Shown here piece by piece: positions 12,221-27,892 of a DNA stretch of 64,000 nucleotides. Positions within the stretch are counted from its first letter, which is position 1, and each line of letters starts with the position of its first letter. The position numbers and the translations under genes are program-made. Below the pieces are notes generated by a model that saw only the letters and a program-made list of their open reading frames with translations, was not told the DNA's origin and ran no database searches. Source of the DNA: Candidatus Sulfotelmatobacter sp. (GTDB taxonomy: Bacteria > Acidobacteriota > Terriglobia > Terriglobales > Acidobacteriaceae); the NCBI GenBank assembly GCA_036500765.1, contig DASYBM010000008.1, positions 1 to 64,000 on the forward strand, written 5' to 3'.

Positions 12221-15061
12221 TTAGATTTTCTTGGTCAGGCTGTCGATGTAGCGGTTGTTGAAGTATGTGGTTGTTTTCTGGACGAACTCGAGAATTTTGA
12301 ACATGCGTTCGCGGCCTTCGCGATTCACTTCGCGGAACTGGACGGCAATGCCGGAACCTGGATCCAGTCGCAGCACCACACCTTCCGCCGACAAACCAGC
12401 GTCGTCCATGGAGAATCCCAGCTTGATTTTGCTGCCCGGCGGAAGGATGGTGCTGGTTTCCACGAAACAGCCTCCCATGCTGAGGTCGGTGACATTGGCG
12501 AATACAGGAGTTTTTCCAGCTTCGGTTTGCATTTCGATAGTGACCCGGCACTTCAGGCGGGGATGGGAACGGCGGTCTTTATAGGAAAGCTCTTTCTGTT
12601 TTTCAAGGTACATGCGGCGGTCGGCTTGAGTGAGCAGTTGCTCGGCGTCTTTGCCGTCTTCGGGATACAGCGCGCGCCCGACACTGAGCGAGAGAATATC
12701 TTCGCCGCAGACTTCGCTTCCCGCCTGGCGGGCCAAGGCGCGCATTTGCTCCGCTTTTTTACTCGCGGCCTCGGGGGTGAGCCCGGGCGCGATCACGACG
12801 AATTCGTCTCCGCCCATGCGGGCGACGTAGTCATATTCGCGGCAGCTATCTTTGAGGGCCTGGGCGAACAGACGTAATACGCGGTTGCCCTCCAGATGGC
12901 CGAAGCGGTCGTTGATCTGCTTGAAGCCGTCCATGTCGGAGACCATTACGGTCAGCGTGGAGTCGTCGCGCTTGCAGCGGGCGAGGTCACGATCCAGTTG
13001 CAGAAAGAGCGAACGCGCGTTGGGCAGGCCGGTAAGGTAGTCGGTGGTGGCGGAGCTTTCCGCCTGCTGATACTTGAGAGCGTTCTCGATCGACAAGGCC
13101 ATCTTGCCGCTGACCGCGAGCAGAATACGCAGATGGTCGGTGGAGAAGGCGTCACGGTCGGCGCGATACAGCGCGAGCACGCCGATGACTCCGGCGATGC
13201 CCTCCAGGGGCACGGCCAGCGCCGAACGGAGCGTGCTGAATTTTGAAGGATCGTTCAGGTATCCCGGTTCGACCGACGGGTTGCCGTTGATGATCGGCTT
13301 GCGGTTGTGCGCCACCCAGCCCGAGAGGCCGTCGCCGATGGGGATTCGCAGCGAGGAAAAGAGGCGATAGTTGTCGCCGTTTACGTACTCGGGAATGAGT
13401 TCGGCGTCGCGTTTGATGTAGATCGCGATCGCGTCATAGGGAACCATGGGCTTGAGTTTCACCGAGAAGACCGAGAGCGTCTCGGTCAGGCTGAGCGATG
13501 CGCCGAGGTCCTGGCTTAGTTCGAAGAGCGATTGCGCTTCTTGCCTGGCGGCGGCGATGGAGGATAGGAAAGTCGTTTCACCTCCCGCGTAATCCGGGAC
13601 ATTGGTGGCGTTCTCAAATCCCGCTGCCGGTTCGTGCCCGCGCTCGATCTTGATCGAAGTGGAGAGCGGGCCGTTGGGATCCTGCGCCGATTTGGCTACA
13701 GCCAACCGCTCCAGATATTGATAGCGTTTTTGCAGAACGTCGACCACACGCGGATCAAACGACTTTCCGGATTCGGCCGCGAGTTTCTGTATGACTTCGC
13801 GCATGGGCAGAGCGCGGCGGTATTGCCGGTCTGAAGCCAGAGCGTCGAGATAATCTACGGCCGAAAGGATGCGGGCGCCGATAGGGATTTCCGCGCCCTT
13901 TAGTCCCATGGGGTAGCCGGAGCCGTCCCACTTTTCGTGGTGAGCGCGGACGATCGGCACCACCGGATACGGGAAGCGCACGCGCTCAAGAATCTCGGCG
14001 CCGACGAGCGTGTGAATTTTCATCTTCTCGAATTCTTCCGGCGTGAGGCGGCCCGGCTTTGAGATGATGTGCTCGGGTACCGCCAGCTTTCCAATGTCGT
14101 GCAGCAGAGCGGCCGCGTGGAGCGCCTCGAGTTCAGGGCCGGTCACGCCCAACTCCTTGGCCACTTCAATGGCGTAGACGCGGACGCGCTGGAGGTGCTC
14201 GTGCGTAGTGTGGTCTTTGGCTTCGATGGCCATGGCCAGGGCTTCGATCGTCCGCAGATGCAGGTTTGCCATGTCCTCGACGTGGCGCTTCTCGTCTTCC
14301 AGTTTGCCGAGATAAAGGCGATACGAGCGGTAGATGACGTAAACGGCGGGCACCAGCAGCAGCGAGGTTTCCCAGTTGAAGGTGTGATTCAGCCAGGCCA
14401 CCGAGCCGGCGATTCCAGCTCCGACCAGATAGTAGGGGAACGACCAGAAATAACAGTCCACCAGAATTCGGATGAGCGGCCGGCGCTCGGTCAGCGAGAT
14501 GACTGTCGCGATGGAGCCGGCGTTGGCGATGAAATAAACGATCGCGGCCAGCACCAGCAAGAGTGGATGATTCGGCAGAAGCCGGTTTGTCAGAGGATGG
14601 TGATAGACGACGTAGGCCAGCGCCGTTGAAAGCGAGCCCGCGCACACATTGAACGTCACCTGAATCGCTTTGGGGCGCTCGGGATAAAGGCATTGGGCCA
14701 GCATCGAGACGGCGCCCAGAATCAGCGTCTCGCTATAGCTGAGTTCCAGGATGCCGATGAGGATGAAAAGAAAATTTACCGACAGCGTGCCCGTGATGCC
14801 GGGCAGATTCACCTTGAGCCGCGAGGCCAGGATGGCGATGCACAGGTAGCAGATGAACTCCGCGATGTTCTTACTGGTCTGGTGAACGCCGCCGAGAATC
14901 AGCGTGGCCAGTCCGGCGATCACTACGACACTGATGAACAGCTTGGCCGGTAGAGACAGAGATCTCCACGAGCGCGAGTGCGCGGGCAGAGCTATGGGAG
15001 CGCTGGTGACGCCAGTCATCATGCGAGTAAACACACGCTGGCCCGAGGGACAGCCAGCCAC
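12221..15061 (-). CDS. Membrane cyclic-di-GMP protein: HD-GYP, GAF, GGDEF and PilZ domains in one chain
   Basis: A protein of 946 residues from a GTG at 15061; ATG codons at 15022 and 15019 are plausible alternatives. The N-terminal third (about 38-250) has about eight membrane segments. The HD-GYP phosphodiesterase domain follows (HD at 321-322 in LLHDIGK; HHEKWDGSGYP with GYP at 382-384), then GAF (about 510-660), a GGDEF cyclase domain with intact GGDEF (750-754) and an inhibitory-site RxxD (741-744) exactly five residues before it, and a C-terminal PilZ domain with RxxxR (831-835) and DLSMGG (859-864). So synthesis, breakdown, product inhibition and effector binding of c-di-GMP are all encoded in one protein. 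It lies convergent to the chemotaxis genes and may link to motility or to the PilT-like ATPase elsewhere in the window. Confidence 0.94.
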   Translation of the reverse strand: MAGCPSGQRVFTRMMTGVTSAPIALPAHSRSWRSLSLPAKLFISVVVIAGLATLILGGVHQTSKNIAEFICYLCIAILASRLKVNLPGITGTLSVNFLFILIGILELSYSETLILGAVSMLAQCLYPERPKAIQVTFNVCAGSLSTALAYVVYHHPLTNRLLPNHPLLLVLAAIVYFIANAGSIATVISLTERRPLIRILVDCYFWSFPYYLVGAGIAGSVAWLNHTFNWETSLLLVPAVYVIYRSYRLYLGKLEDEKRHVEDMANLHLRTIEALAMAIEAKDHTTHEHLQRVRVYAIEVAKELGVTGPELEALHAAALLHDIGKLAVPEHIISKPGRLTPEEFEKMKIHTLVGAEILERVRFPYPVVPIVRAHHEKWDGSGYPMGLKGAEIPIGARILSAVDYLDALASDRQYRRALPMREVIQKLAAESGKSFDPRVVDVLQKRYQYLERLAVAKSAQDPNGPLSTSIKIERGHEPAAGFENATNVPDYAGGETTFLSSIAAARQEAQSLFELSQDLGASLSLTETLSVFSVKLKPMVPYDAIAIYIKRDAELIPEYVNGDNYRLFSSLRIPIGDGLSGWVAHNRKPIINGNPSVEPGYLNDPSKFSTLRSALAVPLEGIAGVIGVLALYRADRDAFSTDHLRILLAVSGKMALSIENALKYQQAESSATTDYLTGLPNARSLFLQLDRDLARCKRDDSTLTVMVSDMDGFKQINDRFGHLEGNRVLRLFAQALKDSCREYDYVARMGGDEFVVIAPGLTPEAASKKAEQMRALARQAGSEVCGEDILSLSVGRALYPEDGKDAEQLLTQADRRMYLEKQKELSYKDRRSHPRLKCRVTIEMQTEAGKTPVFANVTDLSMGGCFVETSTILPPGSKIKLGFSMDDAGLSAEGVVLRLDPGSGIAVQFREVNREGRERMFKILEFVQKTTTYFNNRYIDSLTKKI

Positions 15062-18041: not shown

Positions 18042-18374
18042 CTAGAGATTTTCCTGGATGAAGCGGGGACTGAGGTGAATATCGAATTGCACCAGCGGTG
18101 AATCGCCGACCGCTTTGAAGCTGTGGATCTCGCCAGCCTTGATGACGAAGATGTCTCCCGCGCCGCCCTCGAAGGTTTGGCCGTTTACGGTCCACACTCC
18201 GCGGCCTTCACGAATGAACTGGATTTCGTCATAGGGATGGCGGTGCGGCCCCGGCCCCGATCCGGGTTTTCCGTGGAACAGGAACACCGAAACAGCAGCG
18301 TTGCCCTGCTCAGCTCCGATAAACTCGTGCGAACTACCAACAAAGGGCAGGTTCTCCTGGCGGACGTGATACAT
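18042..18374 (-). CDS. Small cupin-domain protein
   Basis: From ATG at 18374, with AGGAGA nine bases upstream, the protein has 110 residues and is one cupin barrel: cupin motif 1 in GPGPHRHPYDEIQFIREGRG and motif 2 in GDIFVIKAGEIHSFKAVGD. The metal-binding set is H-x-H, a Glu and a later His (HRH, E of DE, H of IHS), all present. Small cupins bind sugars, other small molecules or serve as isomerases; the substrate cannot be told. It lies immediately downstream of the MurU-like gene on the same strand, so it could act on a sugar intermediate, but this is only suggested by position. Confidence 0.85.
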   Translation of the reverse strand: MYHVRQENLPFVGSSHEFIGAEQGNAAVSVFLFHGKPGSGPGPHRHPYDEIQFIREGRGVWTVNGQTFEGGAGDIFVIKAGEIHSFKAVGDSPLVQFDIHLSPRFIQENL

Positions 18375-18444
18375 TGCGTCACTCTCCTGGCCGGATTGGA
18401 TGACGTTGGACGCGGTTTGGTTCCGGGCGACGTGTGATGTACGG

Positions 18445-19218
18445 CTAAATCTCAACCAGCCCTTGCTGCACATCCTTGGCAGCTTGCGCCACGCTTTCGG
18501 GCCGGCCCAGATCGCGCCAATAATAGTCGTCGGCGCGAAAGGCCAGAATCTTTTCTCCTTCTCGTGCCAGGCGCAGGTAAGAATTGATAATTGAGAACGC
18601 CCCGTCCTCGGTGATTCGGGAGAGAAGGCTCGAAGAAATTACGTGCACGCCGGAGAAGGCGAGCGCCTGCATCTCATGCGGATTTCCGGCTAATTCGGCG
18701 GCGTTATCGTCTGTACGGCGGCCGCACAGTTGGCGATGCCCGTCGAACAGAAGATAGCGTGAGCTTTTGCGTTCCTGCACGGCCAGCGTAGCGAGCGCGC
18801 GCTTCTCTCGATGAGCTTGCAGCATGCGGTTCAGGTCGATGGTGCTGACGACATCTACGTTGTGCACAACGATCGGCTCATTCGAATGGGTGGAATTCTC
18901 CAGAAAAAACCACGCCGCCTGCTTGAGGCCGCCACCGGTATCGAGCAAGGTTTCTTCGCGCGAGATTTCAATCCGCATGCCGAAGTTATTGTTCTTCTTC
19001 AGATACTCAGCCACCATGTCGGCGAAGTGATGCACGTTGACGATGACTTCGGAAATGCCGAAGGTGCGCAGACGGCGGATCGTGATTTCAAGCATGGTAT
19101 GACCGGCCACTTCCACCAGGGCTTTGGGACGATCGTCGGTGAGGGGACGCAGGCGCGTCCCCAGGCCGGCGGCCAGAACCATCGCTCTCATCCTCATTGT
19201 CGTTGTCATTATTGTCAT
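18445..19218 (-). CDS. murU: Sugar nucleotidyltransferase, MurU-like
   Basis: A protein of 257 residues of the NTP-transferase family. Signature: AMVLAAGLGTRLRPLTDDRPKAL near the N-terminus, the metal Asp in VVHNVDVVSTIDL, and the C-terminal YYWRDLGRPESV. Its 4-base overlap with an AmgK-like sugar kinase makes it the likely MurU partner, which converts N-acetylmuramate 1-phosphate to UDP-MurNAc and so returns cell-wall sugar to peptidoglycan synthesis without going through de novo UDP-GlcNAc. Several Met codons lie at the start (MTIMTTTMRMRAMVLAAG); MRMRAMVLAAG is the most family-like and would remove the overlap. A mannose-1-phosphate guanylyltransferase role cannot be excluded. Confidence 0.83.
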   Translation of the reverse strand: MTIMTTTMRMRAMVLAAGLGTRLRPLTDDRPKALVEVAGHTMLEITIRRLRTFGISEVIVNVHHFADMVAEYLKKNNNFGMRIEISREETLLDTGGGLKQAAWFFLENSTHSNEPIVVHNVDVVSTIDLNRMLQAHREKRALATLAVQERKSSRYLLFDGHRQLCGRRTDDNAAELAGNPHEMQALAFSGVHVISSSLLSRITEDGAFSIINSYLRLAREGEKILAFRADDYYWRDLGRPESVAQAAKDVQQGLVEI

Positions 19219-20699
19219 TGCGGGGATTTCGCCGGAATCGATTTCCCGGCGGCAGCAGCTTCGGATTCCATTCTTTCCAGCTCGCGGTGCTGCACGACAA
19301 CGGCAACGCCGCTACGCGCGCGCAACCGCTTCGCGACTTGTTCGGCGAGGTACACGGAGCGATGCTGGCCGCCGGTGCATCCAAATGAAACCATCAAATG
19401 TTTGAAGCTGCGTTGCCGATAGTTATTCACGCTGGCATCCACCAGCGACATCACGCTGGCCAGAAACTGATGCACGCTTTCCTGCTGGTTCAGATAGTCG
19501 ATCACCGGCGCGTCGCGGCCCGTGAGCACCTTGAAGCGCTCTTCGCGTCCAGGATTGGGCAGGCTGCGTCCATCGAAAATGAATCCGCCGCCGTTCCCGC
19601 TTTCGTCTTTCGGCAGGCCGCGATGAAAGGAAAAACTGACAATGCGCACGACTAGATTATCCGCATCCGAGGCGAGGCCTTGCAGCTTCTCCGAGGCGAG
19701 CATGCTGTGAAAAGCGTCCATGAGCGTCGGCAGGGCGATAGGCAGGTTTACATGATGCAGCAGCCAGCGCAGATTTTTCAGCGCGTACGGCACGCTCTGC
19801 AAGAAGTGAACTTTGCGTTCGTAAAATCCGCGGAATCCGTAGGCTCCCAGCGCCTGCATGATGCGGATGTAGACGTAAGCGTAATAGTGCCGCATGAAGG
19901 CTGCGCGGGTTAAATCGTGATTCCCCCCGGCGTAGCCGGGCAGCACGTCTAGATAATGATCCAGAAGCTGTTGGCGCAGATCCGGCGGCAGATCGGCCTT
20001 GGCGTCGTAAAGGAGGGAAGCGACGTCATATTGCAGCGCGCCCTTGCGTCCGCCCTGATAGTCGAGAAAAAACGGTTGACCATCGCGGAGCATGATGTTG
20101 CGCGACTGGAAATCGCGATAGAGAAAATAATCCCGCTCCGCGCTCAACAGGAAGCTGGTGAGGTTGTCGAAGTCGTCTTCGAGCGCCTGCTCGCTGAACG
20201 GAACGCCCGCCAAGCGAAGAAAATAGTATTTAAAATAATTCAGGTCCCATGCGATCGACTGCCGGTCGAAACTTCCGCGCGGATAGCATACTTTGTAGTT
20301 CAGGTCGCGTCCGGCCTCGATTTGAAAACGCGGCAGGATGCCGATGACTTTGCGATAGGCGTCAACCGCGGGGACGGCAATTTGTCCGCCCTGGCGATGT
20401 TTCGACAAAAATTCAAAAAGCGTAGTGCTGCCGAGATCTTCTTCGAGATAAGCGCCGCGATCCAAATCTGCGGCGTAGATTTCCGGCACGGGCAAAGAGT
20501 GCTTGCGAAAATGCCGGGAGAATTCGAGAAAGGCCGCATTCTCTTCGCGCACGTCGTAGAGAATGCCGATGGCGCTGACTTTGCCGGTGGCCAGACGTAC
20601 GATTTGCCGCCCCGAGCCGCCCAGTTGCCCTTGCAGCGGCTGGACGTGCTCAACTGGCGAGTGGAAGCGCTGCTCGAATAGCTTTTTGAGAATGTCCAT
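19215..20699 (-). CDS. amgK: AmgK-like amino-sugar kinase fused to a RapZ C-terminal domain
   Basis: A protein of 494 residues with two parts. Residues 1 to about 340 form an aminoglycoside-phosphotransferase-type kinase: YRDFQSRNIML (catalytic Asp and Asn) and FFLDYQGGRKGALQYDVASLL (metal Asp), close to the AmgK pattern, an anomeric kinase for MurNAc and GlcNAc. Residues about 348-494 match the C-terminal domain of RapZ: VVRIVSFSFHRGLP, DGRSLPNPGR, LTGRDAPVIDYL and SFGCTGGQHRSVYLAE. In Enterobacteria this domain senses glucosamine-6-phosphate and controls GlmS synthesis. The fusion is seen in some other phyla and suggests that kinase activity responds to an amino-sugar signal. The next gene, MurU-like, overlaps by 4 bases. 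Confidence 0.88.
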   Translation of the reverse strand: MDILKKLFEQRFHSPVEHVQPLQGQLGGSGRQIVRLATGKVSAIGILYDVREENAAFLEFSRHFRKHSLPVPEIYAADLDRGAYLEEDLGSTTLFEFLSKHRQGGQIAVPAVDAYRKVIGILPRFQIEAGRDLNYKVCYPRGSFDRQSIAWDLNYFKYYFLRLAGVPFSEQALEDDFDNLTSFLLSAERDYFLYRDFQSRNIMLRDGQPFFLDYQGGRKGALQYDVASLLYDAKADLPPDLRQQLLDHYLDVLPGYAGGNHDLTRAAFMRHYYAYVYIRIMQALGAYGFRGFYERKVHFLQSVPYALKNLRWLLHHVNLPIALPTLMDAFHSMLASEKLQGLASDADNLVVRIVSFSFHRGLPKDESGNGGGFIFDGRSLPNPGREERFKVLTGRDAPVIDYLNQQESVHQFLASVMSLVDASVNNYRQRSFKHLMVSFGCTGGQHRSVYLAEQVAKRLRARSGVAVVVQHRELERMESEAAAAGKSIPAKSPQ

Positions 20700-20963
20700 T
20701 TGACGCTGCCGAGCGGTTTAGAGATGACGATTCATCCACTTTTATTTACTAAAGATATCATCGAAGGGCAGAAGCAAAATGCCCTGAGCATCCGCAGACG
20801 AAACATCGGTAATGGTGAACCTTTCAGCTCCACGTCCCGCATCGGGGGGCAGGGATCCCTTCGAGTTTCGCTCGGAAGGATAGGGCGGCGAAAACAAGCG
20901 AAACTGCCCCAATGCCACGAAGTCGCATTCAAGCGGGAAAGATCGATTGCCGATGTACCCCAC

Positions 20964-21413
20964 ATGAAAACCCATGCGGCACTGTTCATGTGGATGATGT
21001 TTGTCGGGACGGCGGTGACCCCGCTGCGGGCGCAAGTCATTGACGAAGCGGCAACCCGAAGCAAAATCCTGGCCCTCGAACATGCCTGGGACCGGGCGGT
21101 CGAGTCCAACGACCTGAAAGGACTGGATTCCCTATTCGACAACGCGCTGGTGTATATCACCCAGGACGGCACGTTGTTGACGAAAGCGGATTTTCTTTTG
21201 AGCGTGAGAGCCATGCGTCTGGAGAAGGTGGTGACGGAGTCGATGAGCGTGCAGGTGTTCGGGGATACTGCGATCGTGACCGGAGTCTACCGATCGAGCG
21301 AATTCAAGAATGGCAAGCTGATCCTGCGGCGCGGTCGTTTTCTCAACACATGGGTGTACAAGGATGGATCGTGGATCTGCGTCGCGGCCGAGGACACGCC
21401 GATGGTGCAGTAA
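20964..21413 (+). CDS. Secreted NTF2-like protein, paralogue 2
   Basis: From ATG at 20964 the protein has 149 residues, with a signal peptide (HAALFMWMMFVGTAVTPLRAQ) and a single NTF2-like domain: ILALEHAWDRAVESNDLKGL, DNALVYITQDGTLLTKADFL and a C-terminal FLNTWVYKDGSWICVAAED. It is homologous to the following gene and to that at 6087-6545. The reading frame stays open to 20700, but the extension contains a family B repeat fragment and no similarity, so the internal Met is preferred. Function unknown; the fold is used for small ligands or as an SnoaL-like enzyme, and no catalytic residues are evident. Confidence 0.8.
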   Translation: MKTHAALFMWMMFVGTAVTPLRAQVIDEAATRSKILALEHAWDRAVESNDLKGLDSLFDNALVYITQDGTLLTKADFLLSVRAMRLEKVVTESMSVQVFGDTAIVTGVYRSSEFKNGKLILRRGRFLNTWVYKDGSWICVAAEDTPMVQ

Positions 21414-21544
21414 AAGGGGCGCTTTTCGCACCCGCCACGCGGTTGCGGAATTCGGCCGGCCCGCGGAATAGAAACAAACACTTGTCCCCTCGCAGGCGTG
21501 CCGTTAGAGTGCAGTTATTGCTAGCTTCACCCCGAGGCAAGAGC

Positions 21545-22006
21545 ATGAAACGGAGCGCCACTTTCGTCATCTTAGGCTGCATCTGTATTGCGGCCTGCGC
21601 TGCGGCGCAAAGCGAGAGCGAGGCGGCCGCGAAGTCGAAGATCGTCGCGCTGGAGCAGTTATGGAATCAGGCGTACAAGTCGGGCGACACGAGAGCGCTG
21701 GATTCCATTCTGGACGATGCGATCGTGCTGGTAAACGATGACGGCTCGGTGCAAACCAAGTCGGAATTTCTGGCGAGCGTGAAGACGGCTGCTCCTGAAC
21801 CCAGTGCCCAGCAGCAACAAGTGCCTCCGGAATCATTCAAAGTAAATGTTTATGGGAATGTGGCTATCGCGACCGGAGTGATGAAGGTGAAAGGCGTGGA
21901 GAACGGCAAGTCGTATACTCGGCGCGAACGTTTTGTCGATACCTGGCTGTTCAAGCGCGGGAACTGGGTGTGCGTGGGCACCGACGCGACGCCGGTTCTG
22001 CACTGA
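21545..22006 (+). CDS. Secreted NTF2-like protein, paralogue 3
   Basis: A protein of 153 residues from ATG at 21545, beginning MKRSATFVILGCICIAACAA. The CIAAC stretch could be a lipobox-like cleavage site, though cleavage after AAAQ by signal peptidase I is equally possible. The domain has IVALEQLWNQAYKSGDTRAL, DDAIVLVNDDGSVQTKSEFL and DTWLFKRGNWVCVGTD. It is closer to paralogue 1 (VLVNDDGS-Q.KS.FLAS) than to its immediate neighbour. Tandem position with paralogue 2 suggests duplication. No function can be assigned. Confidence 0.8.
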   Translation: MKRSATFVILGCICIAACAAAQSESEAAAKSKIVALEQLWNQAYKSGDTRALDSILDDAIVLVNDDGSVQTKSEFLASVKTAAPEPSAQQQQVPPESFKVNVYGNVAIATGVMKVKGVENGKSYTRRERFVDTWLFKRGNWVCVGTDATPVLH

Positions 22007-23957: not shown

Positions 23958-25217
23958 ATGACCGTTCGGGATCTTATTTTCGATGTGCTTCGAACCTTGT
24001 GGGCGCATAAATTGCGGGCTTTTTTGACCATGTTCGGAATTGCATGGGGGATTGTTTCGATTGTGCTGATGGTGGCGGCGGGCGAGGGGTTGCGGAAGGG
24101 TCAGGAAGCGCAGGCGCGGAACCTGGGCAAGGACGTGATGATCGTGTTTCATGGCCGCACCAGCCTACAGGCGGGTGGAACCCATGCTGGGCGCGTGGTT
24201 CACTGGGAGGACCAGGATGTGCCGGTAGTGCAGGCGGAGTCTCCCGATTGCGAGTATGCGATTCCGGAGCTGGAGCAGGACACGGTGCGCGTGCACTCTA
24301 ATTTCAATAATGCGGCGTTCACGGTGACAGGATCGCACCCACCGTTTGGTTATATTCGCAGCCTCGATGTGGGCGCGGGAAGGTTCTATGACTGGGATGA
24401 TATGCGCGAGGGCAGGCGGGTGGCATTTCTGGGGTCGGATGCCGCCAAGCAGTTGTTCCCCGGGCGCAATCCGGTGGGCGATACGATTTATCTGAATGAT
24501 TTTCCGTATAACGTGATTGGCGTGATGGCGAAGAAGAAGCAGGATTCCAGCTATGACGGCTGGGATGTGAATAAAGTTTTCGTGCCGTTTGCCGCGATGC
24601 GACGCGATTTTCCGGATAAGCCTCCCGGGACCGACACGACGTTCGATCAATTGCTGGTGACGCCGAAATCGGTGGGGCAGCATGAGGCTTGCAAGCATGA
24701 AGTGCGCGCGGCGCTGGCACGGATGCATCGCTACGATCCGCGCGATAAGGAGGCGTGTCCGATCTGGGATACGGTGCAGGAGGCGCAGGCGTTCAAGACG
24801 ATGACGGATGGGATGAAATTTTTTCTGGGCGCAGTCGGGATTGTGACGCTGCTGCTGGGCGGAATCGGTGTGATGAACGTGATGCTGGTGGCGGTGCGGG
24901 AGCGGACGCGGGAGATTGGCGTGCGGAAAGCGATTGGCGCTCCGGCGGGCACGATCCTGCGGCAGTTTTTTATTGAGGCGCTGATCATTGCGCTGCTGAG
25001 CGGCGGGATTGGGCTGGGCGTGGCGTTCGGATTTTGCGCGCTCGTGAATATGTTGCCGATGCCGGACTTTTTTGCCGGGCTGATTCCGAGTTGGACGTCG
25101 GGGCTGGTTGCGGCTGGGCTGCTGGGAGCGATTGCGGTAGGAGCGGCGCTGTATCCGGCGCGGAAGGCGGCGTCGATTGATCCGATTGAGGCGTTGCGAT
25201 ATGAGGCGGGAGGATAG
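23958..25217 (+). CDS. MacB-type ABC transporter permease (first of a pair)
   Basis: A protein of 419 residues. The N-terminal membrane segment (LRAFLTMFGIAWGIVSIVLMV), a large periplasmic MacB_PCD-like domain (about 45-275), and three C-terminal membrane segments of the FtsX domain with GGIGVMNVMLVAVRERTREIGVRKAIGA and the terminal LYPARKAASIDPIEALRYE. Such permeases work with an ABC ATPase and usually a periplasmic adaptor to move lipids, peptides or macrolides out of the periplasm. No ATPase or adaptor is adjacent here. The next gene is a homologous permease in the same direction, and both may use an ATPase encoded elsewhere. Confidence 0.92.
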   Translation: MTVRDLIFDVLRTLWAHKLRAFLTMFGIAWGIVSIVLMVAAGEGLRKGQEAQARNLGKDVMIVFHGRTSLQAGGTHAGRVVHWEDQDVPVVQAESPDCEYAIPELEQDTVRVHSNFNNAAFTVTGSHPPFGYIRSLDVGAGRFYDWDDMREGRRVAFLGSDAAKQLFPGRNPVGDTIYLNDFPYNVIGVMAKKKQDSSYDGWDVNKVFVPFAAMRRDFPDKPPGTDTTFDQLLVTPKSVGQHEACKHEVRAALARMHRYDPRDKEACPIWDTVQEAQAFKTMTDGMKFFLGAVGIVTLLLGGIGVMNVMLVAVRERTREIGVRKAIGAPAGTILRQFFIEALIIALLSGGIGLGVAFGFCALVNMLPMPDFFAGLIPSWTSGLVAAGLLGAIAVGAALYPARKAASIDPIEALRYEAGG

Positions 25218-25227
25218 GGATCATTGT

Positions 25228-25311
25228 GTAATTTTGTAATTTGGTAATTGAGTAATTGAAAACACCGGACATCGAGTTTTCAATTCCCCAATTACTCAAT
25301 TTCACAATTAC
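25228..25311. repeat. AT-rich inverted repeat between the two permease genes
   Basis: Left arm 25228-25264 (TAATTGAGTAATTGAAAAC at its end) and right arm 25275-25311 (GTTTTCAATTCCCCAATTAC) are near-complements. A close relative of both arms lies at 60433-60540. Confidence 0.88.
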
Positions 25312-25324
25312 TCGATTCTCTTTC

Positions 25325-26581
25325 ATGCTGATTGAAATCATTCTCGAGGCCTGGGTCGCGCTGAAGCGGAATGTTACCCGCAGCTTTCTTACCATGCTGG
25401 GGGTCGTGTGGGGGATCGCGACGGTGACGCTGCTGATTGCGTATGGCAACAGCTTTCGCAGCGTGCTGGTGCATGGGTTCGACGCGTTCGGCAAGGGCGC
25501 GGTGATCTGCTGGCCACAGCAGACGAGCGAGCAGCCGGGCGGGCAGCGGGCGGGAAAAAAAGTTGTGCTGGAACAGGCCGATCTCGACATGGTGAAGCAG
25601 ACGGCACCGCTCGTGAAGCATGTTTGCCTGGAAACAGTGCGGCGGCCGGGAATTGCTTATGGCGACCGCATGGTCGGGACGGCGCCGGTGCGAGGAGTTT
25701 GTCCGGAATACGGCGAGATGCGGAACGAGGTGCCGTCGGAAGGGCGATGGATTGACGCCGAGGATGAGATGGAACGGCGGCGGGTGATTTTTCTGGGCGG
25801 ACGGTTAAAGGAAGAATTATTCAGCGGGCGGCCGGCGGTGGGTGAGACGGTGCAGGTCGCGGGCGTACGCTTCACAGTGATTGGCGTGATGGCGCGGAAG
25901 ATTCAGCTCAGCAATTATTTTTCCAGCGACGACGAATCATCGTGGATTCCTTATTCGTCGGCGGGCGATTTGTGGAACACCCGCTATGCGGCGGTGATGG
26001 TGTTTGAGCCGATCGCGCCGCAATTTGAAAAGAAAGCTATGGCGCAGGTTCTGGCGGCGGTGGCGACACGGCAGAATTTTTCGCCGACCGATCCGAAAGC
26101 GTTCCAGATGTTTGGGCGCGACGAATTTCGGCCGGTGATCGATGCGCTGACGATCGGGCTGCAGGTGCTGCTGACTTTTATTGGCACGCTGACTTTGGGG
26201 ATCGGCGGGGTCGGCGTGATGAACATCATGCTCGTATCGGTGGACGAGCGCATTCGCGAGATTGGACTCAGGCGTGCGCTGGGGGCGCGCAAGCGTCACA
26301 TCAAGCTGCAGTTTTTGGCGGAGACGCTGCTGATCATGCTGATCGGCGGCGCGATCGGCGTGTTGTTGTCGTACGTGATCGCCTGGTCGGTGGGGACGTT
26401 GCCGATGATGGGACCGTTGTTCGAGGACGATTCCGGGCAGGGCGATATTCATCTGAAGATTTCGCTGATGACGGTATTTTTATCGGGCGCGGTGTTGCTG
26501 GTGGTGGGCGTGGTCAGCGGATTGGTGCCGGCGCTGCGGGCGTCGAAGCTGGACCCGGTGGAGGCGCTGCGGTATGAGTAG
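25325..26581 (+). CDS. MacB-type ABC transporter permease (second of a pair)
   Basis: From ATG at 25325 the protein has 418 residues, starting MLIEIILEAWVALKRNVTRSF. Same layout as the previous gene: N-terminal membrane segment TMLGVVWGIATVTLLIA, periplasmic domain, and C-terminal FtsX domain with GVGVMNIMLVSVDERIREIGL and ALRASKLDPVEALRYE. The two permeases probably form a heterodimer. The frame is open to 25256, but those codons are the right half of the AT-rich inverted repeat, so the internal ATG is preferred. Confidence 0.92.
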   Translation: MLIEIILEAWVALKRNVTRSFLTMLGVVWGIATVTLLIAYGNSFRSVLVHGFDAFGKGAVICWPQQTSEQPGGQRAGKKVVLEQADLDMVKQTAPLVKHVCLETVRRPGIAYGDRMVGTAPVRGVCPEYGEMRNEVPSEGRWIDAEDEMERRRVIFLGGRLKEELFSGRPAVGETVQVAGVRFTVIGVMARKIQLSNYFSSDDESSWIPYSSAGDLWNTRYAAVMVFEPIAPQFEKKAMAQVLAAVATRQNFSPTDPKAFQMFGRDEFRPVIDALTIGLQVLLTFIGTLTLGIGGVGVMNIMLVSVDERIREIGLRRALGARKRHIKLQFLAETLLIMLIGGAIGVLLSYVIAWSVGTLPMMGPLFEDDSGQGDIHLKISLMTVFLSGAVLLVVGVVSGLVPALRASKLDPVEALRYE

Positions 26582-26594
26582 CGCCTAGCGGCCG

Positions 26595-26702
26595 GACGGC
26601 CAGGGCTAAAGCCCCGCATCGCTTTTAACGCATGACGCGGCCCTAAAGGGCCGCTCTTCCACGAGAAACCGTTCTTCCACAAAGGGCCGCTCTTCCACGA
26701 AT
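26595..26702. repeat. GGGCCGCTCTTCCACGA-type repeat
   Basis: CTAAAGGGCCGCTCTTCCAC, then GTTCTTCCACAAAGGGCCGCTCTTCCACGA, duplicated units in the gap before the membrane protein gene. A short form of the same ending (CCCTCCACGA) is seen near 23860 and 47128. Confidence 0.65.
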
Positions 26703-26782
26703 TGATTTGCACCGCATCTTCGTTCGCAGTACCTTGGTTCGCAGTAATTTGCTGCTGGGGCAATTTCGCCCCGAGGTGCTGC

Positions 26783-27892
26783 TTGCCGATTTCCGCCATC
26801 GATACCATCACGCTTGCCTTTCAACACACCAGGCAACAACTCATACAACCATTTCGCTTTGGGCAGTGGACCCGTCTGGCGTTGGTGGGGTTGCTGGCGG
26901 GAGAGATGGGATCGGGCGGGTTTAACTTTCCTTCCAATTTCAATATTCCGCAACAAGGCGGATCGTCGCGCCATTTCGTGAATCCTCTTACAGATCGGTT
27001 TCCGCAGATCGATCCCGCAATTCTGGCGGGAGTGATTGCGACGCTCGTCGTAACCGGCTTTATCCTGGCGATCGTGCTGCTGTACGTGAGCAGCGTGATG
27101 CGGTTCATTCTGTTCGATAGCGTGCTGGCGAAGGACTGCCATATTCGGCAGGGCTGGAGCCGCAGGACGGGCCCGGGCTGGCGATATTTTTGGTGGCAAC
27201 TGGGTTACATGATGGTCGTGCTCGGGGGACTGGCAGTGTTCGTGGGTATTCCCGCGGCCTTTGCCTACGCCTTGGGGTGGTTTAGCCAGCCTGGGGAGCA
27301 CGCTCTAGGACTGGTGCTGGGCGGGATTGCGTTGTTCTTCGTAATGTTCGCTGTCTTCGTGGTGACGGCGGTGGTGCATGTGCTGACCAAAGATTTTGTG
27401 GTGCCGCAGATGGCGCTGGAGGGAATTGGAGCCATCGAGGGGTGGCGACGTTTGTGGCCGATGATCAAGGCGGAGAAGGGCGGCTACGCCGGGTACATTG
27501 GGATGAAGATCGCACTGGCGATCGGGGCAGGGATCGTAATTGGCATCGCGTCGTTGATTCTGGGATTGATCATTGCGATTCCGACCGTGGCCTTGACGCT
27601 GGTTGCGGTGCTCACCGGGAAAAGCGTTGGACTGACCTGGAATGTTTTTACCATTACGGTGGCGGTGGTGGTGGGAAGCATTCTGTTCGCGGCTTTCATG
27701 TATTTGGTCGGGCTGATTGCGGTGCCGGCGATCGTTTTCTTCCCGGCGTATTCGATTTATTTCTTTGCGGCGAGGTATCGACCGCTGGGGATGGTTTTGT
27801 ATCCGCCCTCGGCGGCGGCAGGGCCGGCTTCGGAGGGCGGGCCTCCGCCGGAACCACCGCCACTGTCACTCACTCCTGAACCGATTGGGTAG
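26783..27892 (+). CDS. Polytopic membrane protein (DUF7544-like)
   Basis: From a TTG at 26783 (GAGGTG just upstream) the protein has 369 residues. It starts LPISAIDTITLAFQHTRQQL, a common form for this family, followed by FRFGQWTRLALVGLLAG. About six hydrophobic segments follow (for example VIATLVVTGFILAIVLLYV, IALFFVMFAVFVVTAVV and the Gly/Ile-rich IALAIGAGIVIGIASLILG). The segment KDFVVPQMALEGIGAIEGWR is typical of the domain. The tail is Pro-rich. No transport or enzymatic function is established. The frame extends 27 codons upstream without similarity. Confidence 0.75.
   Translation: MPISAIDTITLAFQHTRQQLIQPFRFGQWTRLALVGLLAGEMGSGGFNFPSNFNIPQQGGSSRHFVNPLTDRFPQIDPAILAGVIATLVVTGFILAIVLLYVSSVMRFILFDSVLAKDCHIRQGWSRRTGPGWRYFWWQLGYMMVVLGGLAVFVGIPAAFAYALGWFSQPGEHALGLVLGGIALFFVMFAVFVVTAVVHVLTKDFVVPQMALEGIGAIEGWRRLWPMIKAEKGGYAGYIGMKIALAIGAGIVIGIASLILGLIIAIPTVALTLVAVLTGKSVGLTWNVFTITVAVVVGSILFAAFMYLVGLIAVPAIVFFPAYSIYFFAARYRPLGMVLYPPSAAAGPASEGGPPPEPPPLSLTPEPIG

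Follow-up and report, generated by a model that had tools for sequence, protein, structure and literature searches.

An AmgK-like kinase fused to a RapZ C-terminal domain and paired with a MurU-like nucleotidyltransferase in Acidobacteriota, Bacteroidota and other bacterial lineages

The closest described counterparts of the locus reported here are the kinase-nucleotidyltransferase pair AmgK-MurU and the RNase adapter RapZ. AmgK is an anomeric kinase of N-acetylmuramic acid (MurNAc) and N-acetylglucosamine (GlcNAc), and MurU is a MurNAc-1-phosphate uridylyltransferase. The genes for AmgK and MurU adjoin in Pseudomonas putida (PMC5371407); in Caulobacter their locus tags are consecutive, and Tannerella forsythia is also reported to have the pathway (PMC13046382). 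In Pseudomonas, MurNAc salvage of the AmgK-MurU type has been linked to an intrinsic resistance to fosfomycin, and MupP fills the MurNAc-6-phosphate (MurNAc-6P) phosphatase step (PMC5371407). In proteobacteria, MurQ and AmgK-MurU were described as mutually exclusive (PMC5371407), and T. forsythia was reported to have both routes (PMC7670621). Here we describe a gene from a 64,000-nucleotide (nt) stretch of the soil acidobacterium Candidatus Sulfotelmatobacter sp. (contig DASYBM010000008.1, positions 1 to 64,000; below, the window), the product of which joins an AmgK-like kinase to the C-terminal domain of RapZ, and the gene for a MurU-like nucleotidyltransferase that follows it.

RapZ of Escherichia coli binds glucosamine-6-phosphate (GlcN6P) through its C-terminal domain (PMC7073468). 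The proposed anion pocket of this domain comprises H190, T248, G249, H252 and R253, with C247 nearby (PMC5737377, PMC9841335), residues 179-182 form a strand needed for self-interaction, and Trp191 contacts the N-terminal domain of RapZ (both PMC5737377). The H190A substitution abolishes cleavage of GlmZ, and C247A and C247S each abolish RapZ activity, for which a catalytic -SH was proposed; in the structure of the C-terminal domain with GlcN6P, the density was described as 'likely a chemically transformed product' (all PMC9841335).

The features of the locus, with their positions in the window, are as follows.

19215..20699, minus strand: kinase-RapZ C-terminal domain fusion gene, 494 amino acids; open frame, Pfam APH and PF22740, mean predicted local distance difference test (pLDDT) of the model 92.5
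19680..20699, minus strand: AmgK-like APH-fold kinase part, residues 1-340; APH E-value 3.6e-12, AmgK-model matches of relatives, fold match to 3csv at Z 28.9
20097..20117, minus strand: kinase loop R195-D-F-Q-S-R-N201; letters read at these bases, invariant in a 66-row alignment, which is partly built in by the search (see below)
19260..19676, minus strand: RapZ C-terminal domain, residues 342-480; PF22740 E-value 1.4e-35, isolated-domain fold match to 5o5s
19584..19598, minus strand: fusion-specific loop G368-N-G-G-G372; letters read at these bases
19356..19382, minus strand: anion-pocket loop with C-x5-R, G440-CTGGQHRS448; letters read, pocket residues per PMC5737377 and PMC9841335
18445..19218, minus strand: MurU-like nucleotidyltransferase, 257 amino acids; Pfam NTP_transferase E-value 1.6e-29, best NCBIfam match MurU
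19215..19218, minus strand: 4-nt ATGA overlap, the kinase stop codon and the first ATG of the nucleotidyltransferase; from the sequence

The frame for the fused protein was uninterrupted, and its two Pfam domains, APH at residues 51-257 and PapZ_C (PF22740, the RapZ C-terminal domain) at residues 350-475, both scored above their curated cut-offs. An AlphaFold model of the protein, made with 66 aligned fused proteins as input, had a mean pLDDT of 92.5 and a predicted template modelling score of 0.73, so the mutual placement of the two domains is less certain than either fold. A scan of 84,980 species, in which the query was the kinase part only and the C-terminal domain was left out, gave at least 589 stretches, at least 581 of them confirmed, and the best 80 loci were kept. 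A RapZ domain lay in the same frame at 79 of these 80 loci, and the 80th ends at a contig end. Chance fusion is thereby excluded, and the fusion of an AmgK-like APH-fold kinase (about residues 1-340) to a RapZ C-terminal domain (about residues 344-480) is genuine. The first-pass annotation of this DNA had read 19215-20699 as a sugar kinase fused to a RapZ domain, with an AmgK-like N-terminal half, a C-terminal RapZ signature and a MurU-like neighbor, and the results given here and below bear out each of these points. No paper on the fusion was among the matches listed in searches of the open-access literature; subscription papers, or papers with other wording, could hold one. The same genome encodes a separate, canonical RapZ with both ATPase and C-terminal domains (C4:1941115-1941948).

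For the kinase half, the APH fold and the R195-N201 loop, which we take to be the APH-type catalytic loop, were both present. The conservation of this loop adds no extra evidence, since the scan peptides were WDLNYFK and YRDFQSRN and the filters used the loop too; two fused proteins, L152 and L175, were omitted from the 66-row alignment because they failed the kinase-loop filter (L175 reads RDFQARN). Both NCBIfam AmgK models were matched by all 66 aligned fused proteins (best E-value 2.6e-24). In a fold search with the AlphaFold model, the top match was the putative aminoglycoside phosphotransferase 3csv from Silicibacter, with 309 residues aligned at 2.9 Å and 20% identity.

The RapZ signature SFGCTGGQHRSV was present in the fused protein. 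Within the full model, the C-terminal domain matched the E. coli RapZ C-terminal domain structure 5o5s with Z 19.2 over 123 aligned residues (1.6 Å), and modelled alone (pLDDT 94) it matched with Z 20.2 over 123 residues at 1.4 Å and 38% identity. The anion loop was retained as GCTGG-x-HRS in 79 of 80 fused frames (the window and 79 loci), the exception, L119, ending at a contig end, and a G-x-GGG insert was found in all 66 aligned fused rows; both counts are independent of the selection pattern and of the GGG-based class definition of the comparison described next. We then compared 102 unique fused with 41 unique canonical domains, taking only sequences with G-x-TGG-x-HRS, so that those letters were fixed, and the pattern set no constraint on the Cys, on Asp182 or on residue 190. 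The insert was in none of the 41 canonical domains, the fused class of this comparison being partly defined by GGG. The position of E. coli His190 was Gly in 102/102 fused domains (G384 in the window) and His, Tyr or Asn in 29, 7 and 5 of the canonical domains, and the position of Trp191 was Arg or Lys in the fused domains. Position 170 was Lys in 35 and Arg in 12 of the 102 fused domains, and is H359 in the window. The loop Cys was invariant in all fused and all canonical domains, as was Asp182 (376 in the window protein). Across the 66 fused rows, the anion loop, Asp376, Arg378, Asn382-Pro383 and His471 did not vary. The self-interaction strand of E. coli RapZ was retained as F373-D376, which forms a strand in the AlphaFold model, and the C441-R447 loop sits between strand 434-441 and helix 447-460 of that model.

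The fused protein is thus like RapZ in the identity and fold of its C-terminal domain and in keeping the anion loop and dimer strand, and unlike it in the His190 and Trp191 changes, the G-x-GGG insert and the sugar kinase that stands in place of the N-terminal ATPase. The C-terminal domain passed its Pfam cut-off (122.5 against 27 bits), whereas the NCBIfam RapZ equivalog cut-off of 244 bits was missed at 115.9 bits. The RapZ ATPase domain PF03668 was not among the Pfam hits of the fused protein, the sole hit in the genome being at C4:1941490, and K170 and H190, which E. coli RapZ needs for handling GlmZ, were not kept. The change of Trp191 fits with the absence of the RapZ N-terminal domain that it contacts. 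Because of the His190-to-Gly change and the added loop, the ligand is not transferable from E. coli RapZ; our guess would be a wider pocket accommodating a bulkier sugar phosphate. The fused domains lack the C-terminal basic RNA-binding tail; this loss was dropped as an argument against an RNA role, as most of the 41 canonical relatives also lack positions 282-283.

The nucleotidyltransferase gene overlaps the end of the fused gene by 4 nt if its first ATG is used; the real start could lie at a later ATG in frame (codons 4, 8, 10, 12 and so on), as homologues suggest. The two best NCBIfam models for this protein were both for MurU, and both were matched by all 34 selected partners (best E-value 2.7e-46, with 3.6e-33 at best for any other named activity). 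In these 34, which were hand-picked from the partners scoring at least 250 bits on a custom profile, A16-A17-G18, G20, R22, N120, D122 and D236 were invariant; we take these residues to be the nucleotidyltransferase signature and Asp residues.

A nucleotidyltransferase gene lay downstream on the same strand at 68 of the 80 loci (1082 nt away at one and cut by the contig end at two). Among the other 12, three had less than 30 nt of contig left, L131 had 763 nt and L139 had 1350 nt, and seven, all titled Bacteroidota, had more than 5.5 kb. A profile of the 34 partners was therefore run on 36 genomes, namely 13 carriers of the kinase with a missing or partial neighbor, three carriers from the family of the window genome, and 20 non-carriers from that family (the first 20 listed of 120 non-matching genomes in a search of 396 genomes of the phylum). 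Six of the seven Bacteroidota had a partner orthologue elsewhere in the genome (252-326 bits), and the seventh, G475, gave no match at all. The remaining six carriers gave three good matches (281-333 bits) and three in pieces only (139-239 bits), and the family carriers scored 338-354 bits, so that full-length orthologues in the tested carriers spanned 252-354 bits. None of the 20 family members without the kinase had a partner orthologue by this profile search (best 97 bits). This co-occurrence indicates that the kinase and its partner travel together even when their genes are not adjacent. Together, gene order and co-occurrence across phyla support a link between the kinase and the nucleotidyltransferase, and these two features, like the domains and folds, are read directly from sequence and predicted structure.

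The window pair shares with AmgK-MurU an APH-fold kinase encoded directly before a partner of the NTP_transferase fold; the only kinase models matched were the NCBIfam AmgK models, and the MurU models ranked first for the partner. The TsaE-kinase of Sinorhizobium meliloti likewise precedes a nucleotidyltransferase. The pair is unlike AmgK-MurU in that its kinase bears a RapZ C-terminal domain, both proteins fall well under the equivalog cut-offs, and MurQ coexists with it in many carriers. In fold and gene arrangement the two proteins are like AmgK and MurU, but they are not classifiable as members of either family.

The observation is much broader than a single locus. The kinase was found in 22 of 25 genomes of the genus of the window; in three of the 22 it lay in pieces at the ends of contigs. 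In the 396-genome search of the phylum, 10 genomes had a clear orthologue (>400 bits, at least 61% identity) and the other 266 matches reached at most 126.5 bits; among 20 of these lower-scoring kinases that were retrieved, the RapZ motif was in none of the 12 readable by the motif filter. The loci came from records titled Acidobacteria, Elusimicrobia, Bacteroidetes, Ignavibacteria, Calditrichaeota, Neomarinimicrobiota and KSB1, and from a Deferribacteres and an Opitutae metagenome-assembled genome (MAG); nearly all are MAGs, and individual taxon assignments may be wrong. In a plasmid collection, four records, all from Bacteroidota, covered at least 80% of the query. The two of these with annotation, in Parabacteroides distasonis and Bacteroides finegoldii (WP_005858754.1 and WP_237923178.1; NZ_OY725790.1 91859-93289, L173, and NZ_OY725912.1 64119-65549, L174), share 43% identity with the query across 95% of its length, are each followed by a nucleotidyltransferase gene, and are named 'RNase adapter RapZ'. 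Parabacteroides belongs to the family of Tannerella forsythia. Their two-domain build does not differ from that of the window protein, and the name implies a function that they are unlikely to have. In these copies a sugar kinase replaces the RapZ ATPase domain under that label, possibly a systematic misannotation. A control genome of Bacteroides ihuae gave no RapZ C-terminal domain match, so either the fusion is not in every Bacteroides or the search missed a copy.

In carriers outside Acidobacteriaceae, the canonical RapZ ATPase domain was not found in 33 of 48 genomes, the completeness of which is not given, and each of these 33 had only one RapZ-type C-terminal domain that was found. The ATPase domain was in none of the 29 carriers titled Bacteroidota, Ignavibacteria, Calditrichota, Neomarinimicrobiota or KSB1 (the Fibrobacteres-Chlorobi-Bacteroidetes group), which include Mariniphaga anaerophila DSM 26910, the sole record not titled MAG, and it was present in 11 of 11 carriers titled Elusimicrobia. 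Bacillus subtilis, which presumably has a RapZ homologue in YvcJ, was not among the control genomes matching the RapZ searches, so the absences of PF03668 are less than certain and misses are possible. One branch with support 100 split fused from canonical sequences in a tree of the C-terminal domain (66 and 29 rows), and likewise fused from standalone sequences in a tree of the kinase (56 and 12 rows). Both trees were built quickly from sampled rows and came with warnings of long branches; the C-terminal domain rows were partly random samples, and the kinase tree took 12 of 20 standalone kinases, the motif filter having skipped eight as well as the S. meliloti kinase. This topology fits a single fusion event. 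One fused protein, a close relative, at 1404-2978 of L093 (on a contig shared with L008), has a repetitive extension of about 40-50 residues, rich in Gln, Ala and Lys, past its RapZ domain.

In the window, the last 29 nt of the nucleotidyltransferase gene overlap a cupin gene at 18042-18473 (minus strand). The cupin gene was considered as a third operon member and rejected, as it had no homologue at the other loci scanned. Apart from the window, an acetolactate synthase gene lay beside the pair only at L121. Two tandem frames with DUF4440 domains (20700-21413 and 21350-22006, plus strand) diverge from the kinase gene, and at 23958-27892 (plus strand) two MacB/FtsX-type permease genes are followed by a DUF7544 gene. 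At 12221-15061 (minus strand), a single chain of 946 amino acids combines HD, GAF, GGDEF and PilZ domains; this combination is not known to be common among cyclic-di-GMP proteins. An Rfam search of the window gave no match, and the repeats around the locus held nothing of note.

We favor, at about even odds (roughly 0.5), a conserved two-gene sugar-activation module in which an anomeric kinase and a nucleotidyltransferase make an envelope precursor and the RapZ domain is a sugar-phosphate-binding part. The kinase half would use ATP to phosphorylate a free sugar at its anomeric carbon; an amino sugar, for instance MurNAc or GlcNAc, is the most likely candidate. The adjacent nucleotidyltransferase would couple the resulting sugar-1-phosphate to a nucleotide, most likely uridine monophosphate. 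The RapZ domain, with its anion loop and dimer strand kept, would most likely tune or assemble the kinase upon binding a phosphorylated sugar. The presence of AnmK in the window genome also counts in favor of this module. Which sugar, nucleotide and ligand are involved, and which way any regulation runs, are inferences. The first-pass annotation had proposed a cell-wall recycling kinase, its activity or localization tuned by amino-sugar level. The results support a salvage kinase in its chemistry, though not MurNAc or GlcNAc as its particular substrate; regulation by amino-sugar level is plausible.

Several observations weigh against this module and bear on what else the locus could encode. 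The window kinase scored 49.4 and 45.9 bits on the AmgK models, far under the cut-offs of 500 or 550 bits, and its partner scored 125 and 120.9 bits on MurU models with cut-offs of 250 and 370 bits. The pocket His190 is lost in every fused domain compared. No further gene family stood beside the pair in more than five of 48 loci, which leaves no added peptidoglycan hint from gene order (the crude open reading frame caller used for this clustering lost some true genes, seeing the kinase in 40 and the partner in 32, and the clusters are unannotated). Among 59 carriers, MurQ passed its cut-off in 34, the window genome being one of them, against the proteobacterial either/or rule. Its presence is no guide to whether an AmgK-type pathway is used, since all 20 non-carrier relatives examined have it as well. 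The same kinase and nucleotidyltransferase chemistry could instead serve another substrate, such as a glycan hexosamine, mannose, heptose, a LicA-LicC-like amino-alcohol or a natural product, and we regard this as the less likely, though most serious, alternative. The presence of MurQ in the window genome would suit it, and the next-best model for the partner, mannose-1-phosphate guanylyltransferase (114.9 bits), trailed MurU by just 6-10 bits, with heptose-1-phosphate guanylyltransferase also matching (68.1 bits); both models were likewise matched by all 34 selected partners. Among folds, corramycin phosphotransferase, an antibiotic kinase, came second (Z 26.5), followed by choline kinases (Z about 20), N-acetylhexosamine 1-kinase (Z 19.8) and LicA (19.6). 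The small MurU margin and the natural-product kinase as second-best fold slightly lower our estimate for the envelope-precursor module and slightly raise that for another substrate. On the other side, MurU models came first for the window partner and had the best E-values among its relatives, 3csv, though itself merely a putative aminoglycoside phosphotransferase, topped the fold matches, and the binding of GlcN6P by this type of domain in E. coli suggests an amino sugar.

The remaining alternatives concern the RapZ domain. That it is itself an enzyme, which, acting on a sugar phosphate such as MurNAc-6P or GlcNAc-6-phosphate, would move or remove the phosphate and hand the free sugar to the kinase as a built-in counterpart of MupP, seems doubtful to us. 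C-x5-R-S is the phosphate-binding motif of Cys-dependent phosphatases, and the invariant C-T-G-G-x-H-R-S, which lies between a strand and a helix as in that class, fits it. The invariance of the Cys and Asp in fused and canonical domains, the inactive C247A and C247S variants and the apparently transformed GlcN6P of E. coli RapZ point the same way. AnmK makes MurNAc-6P, and it was found in 54 of 59 carriers including the window genome. However, all tested E. coli variants, apparently including those of C247, also lost GlmZ binding, so their loss of activity need not be a loss of catalysis (PMC9841335), and no measured enzyme activity of RapZ is reported in the accessible parts of PMC5737377, PMC7073468 and PMC9841335. 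After RapZ, the fold matches listed for the domain were phosphofructokinase, at Z 6.8 or less, methyltransferases and P-loop kinases, with no Cys-phosphatase among them, by which a convergent catalytic loop is neither supported nor excluded. Were the domain catalytic, dephosphorylation and rephosphorylation would take place on one polypeptide that covers the MupP step. An equally doubtful extension is that the RapZ C-terminal domain was originally an amino-sugar-phosphate-processing module with a catalytic Cys-X5-Arg, that its fusion to an anomeric kinase in several phyla converts sugar-6-phosphate to sugar-1-phosphate, and that E. coli came to use this pocket for RNA regulation only later. 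Slightly less probable again is a mere assembly device that dimerizes the kinase and has no regulatory ligand: the self-interaction strand is kept, but the invariant anion loop, Asp376, Arg378, Asn382-Pro383 and His471 go beyond what a dimer interface needs. Least probable by far is an RNase adapter presenting a small RNA to RNase E, as the database name of the Bacteroidota copies has it. Besides that name, the Lys or Arg at position 170 in part of the fused domains would agree with such a role, while the lack of the ATPase domain, the score far below the RapZ cut-off, the Arg or Lys at Trp191 and the separate canonical RapZ in the window genome speak against it. In particular, H190A abolishes GlmZ cleavage (PMC9841335) and the fused domains have Gly there, which makes a GlmZ-like role unlikely.

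If the sugar-activation module is the correct reading, a large set of proteins (at least 581 kinase stretches, with the 80 best loci examined here) risks being misnamed as RNA adapters while really serving envelope-sugar salvage, and this set includes the only RapZ-type C-terminal domain found in 33 of 48 carrier genomes. The fused proteins would be a natural experiment for RapZ research, with the metabolite pocket present without the RNA job, and would make two questions on E. coli RapZ testable, namely which molecule is bound or changed in the pocket and why Cys247 cannot be Ser. They may also reveal the MurNAc salvage route of Bacteroidota and Acidobacteriota.

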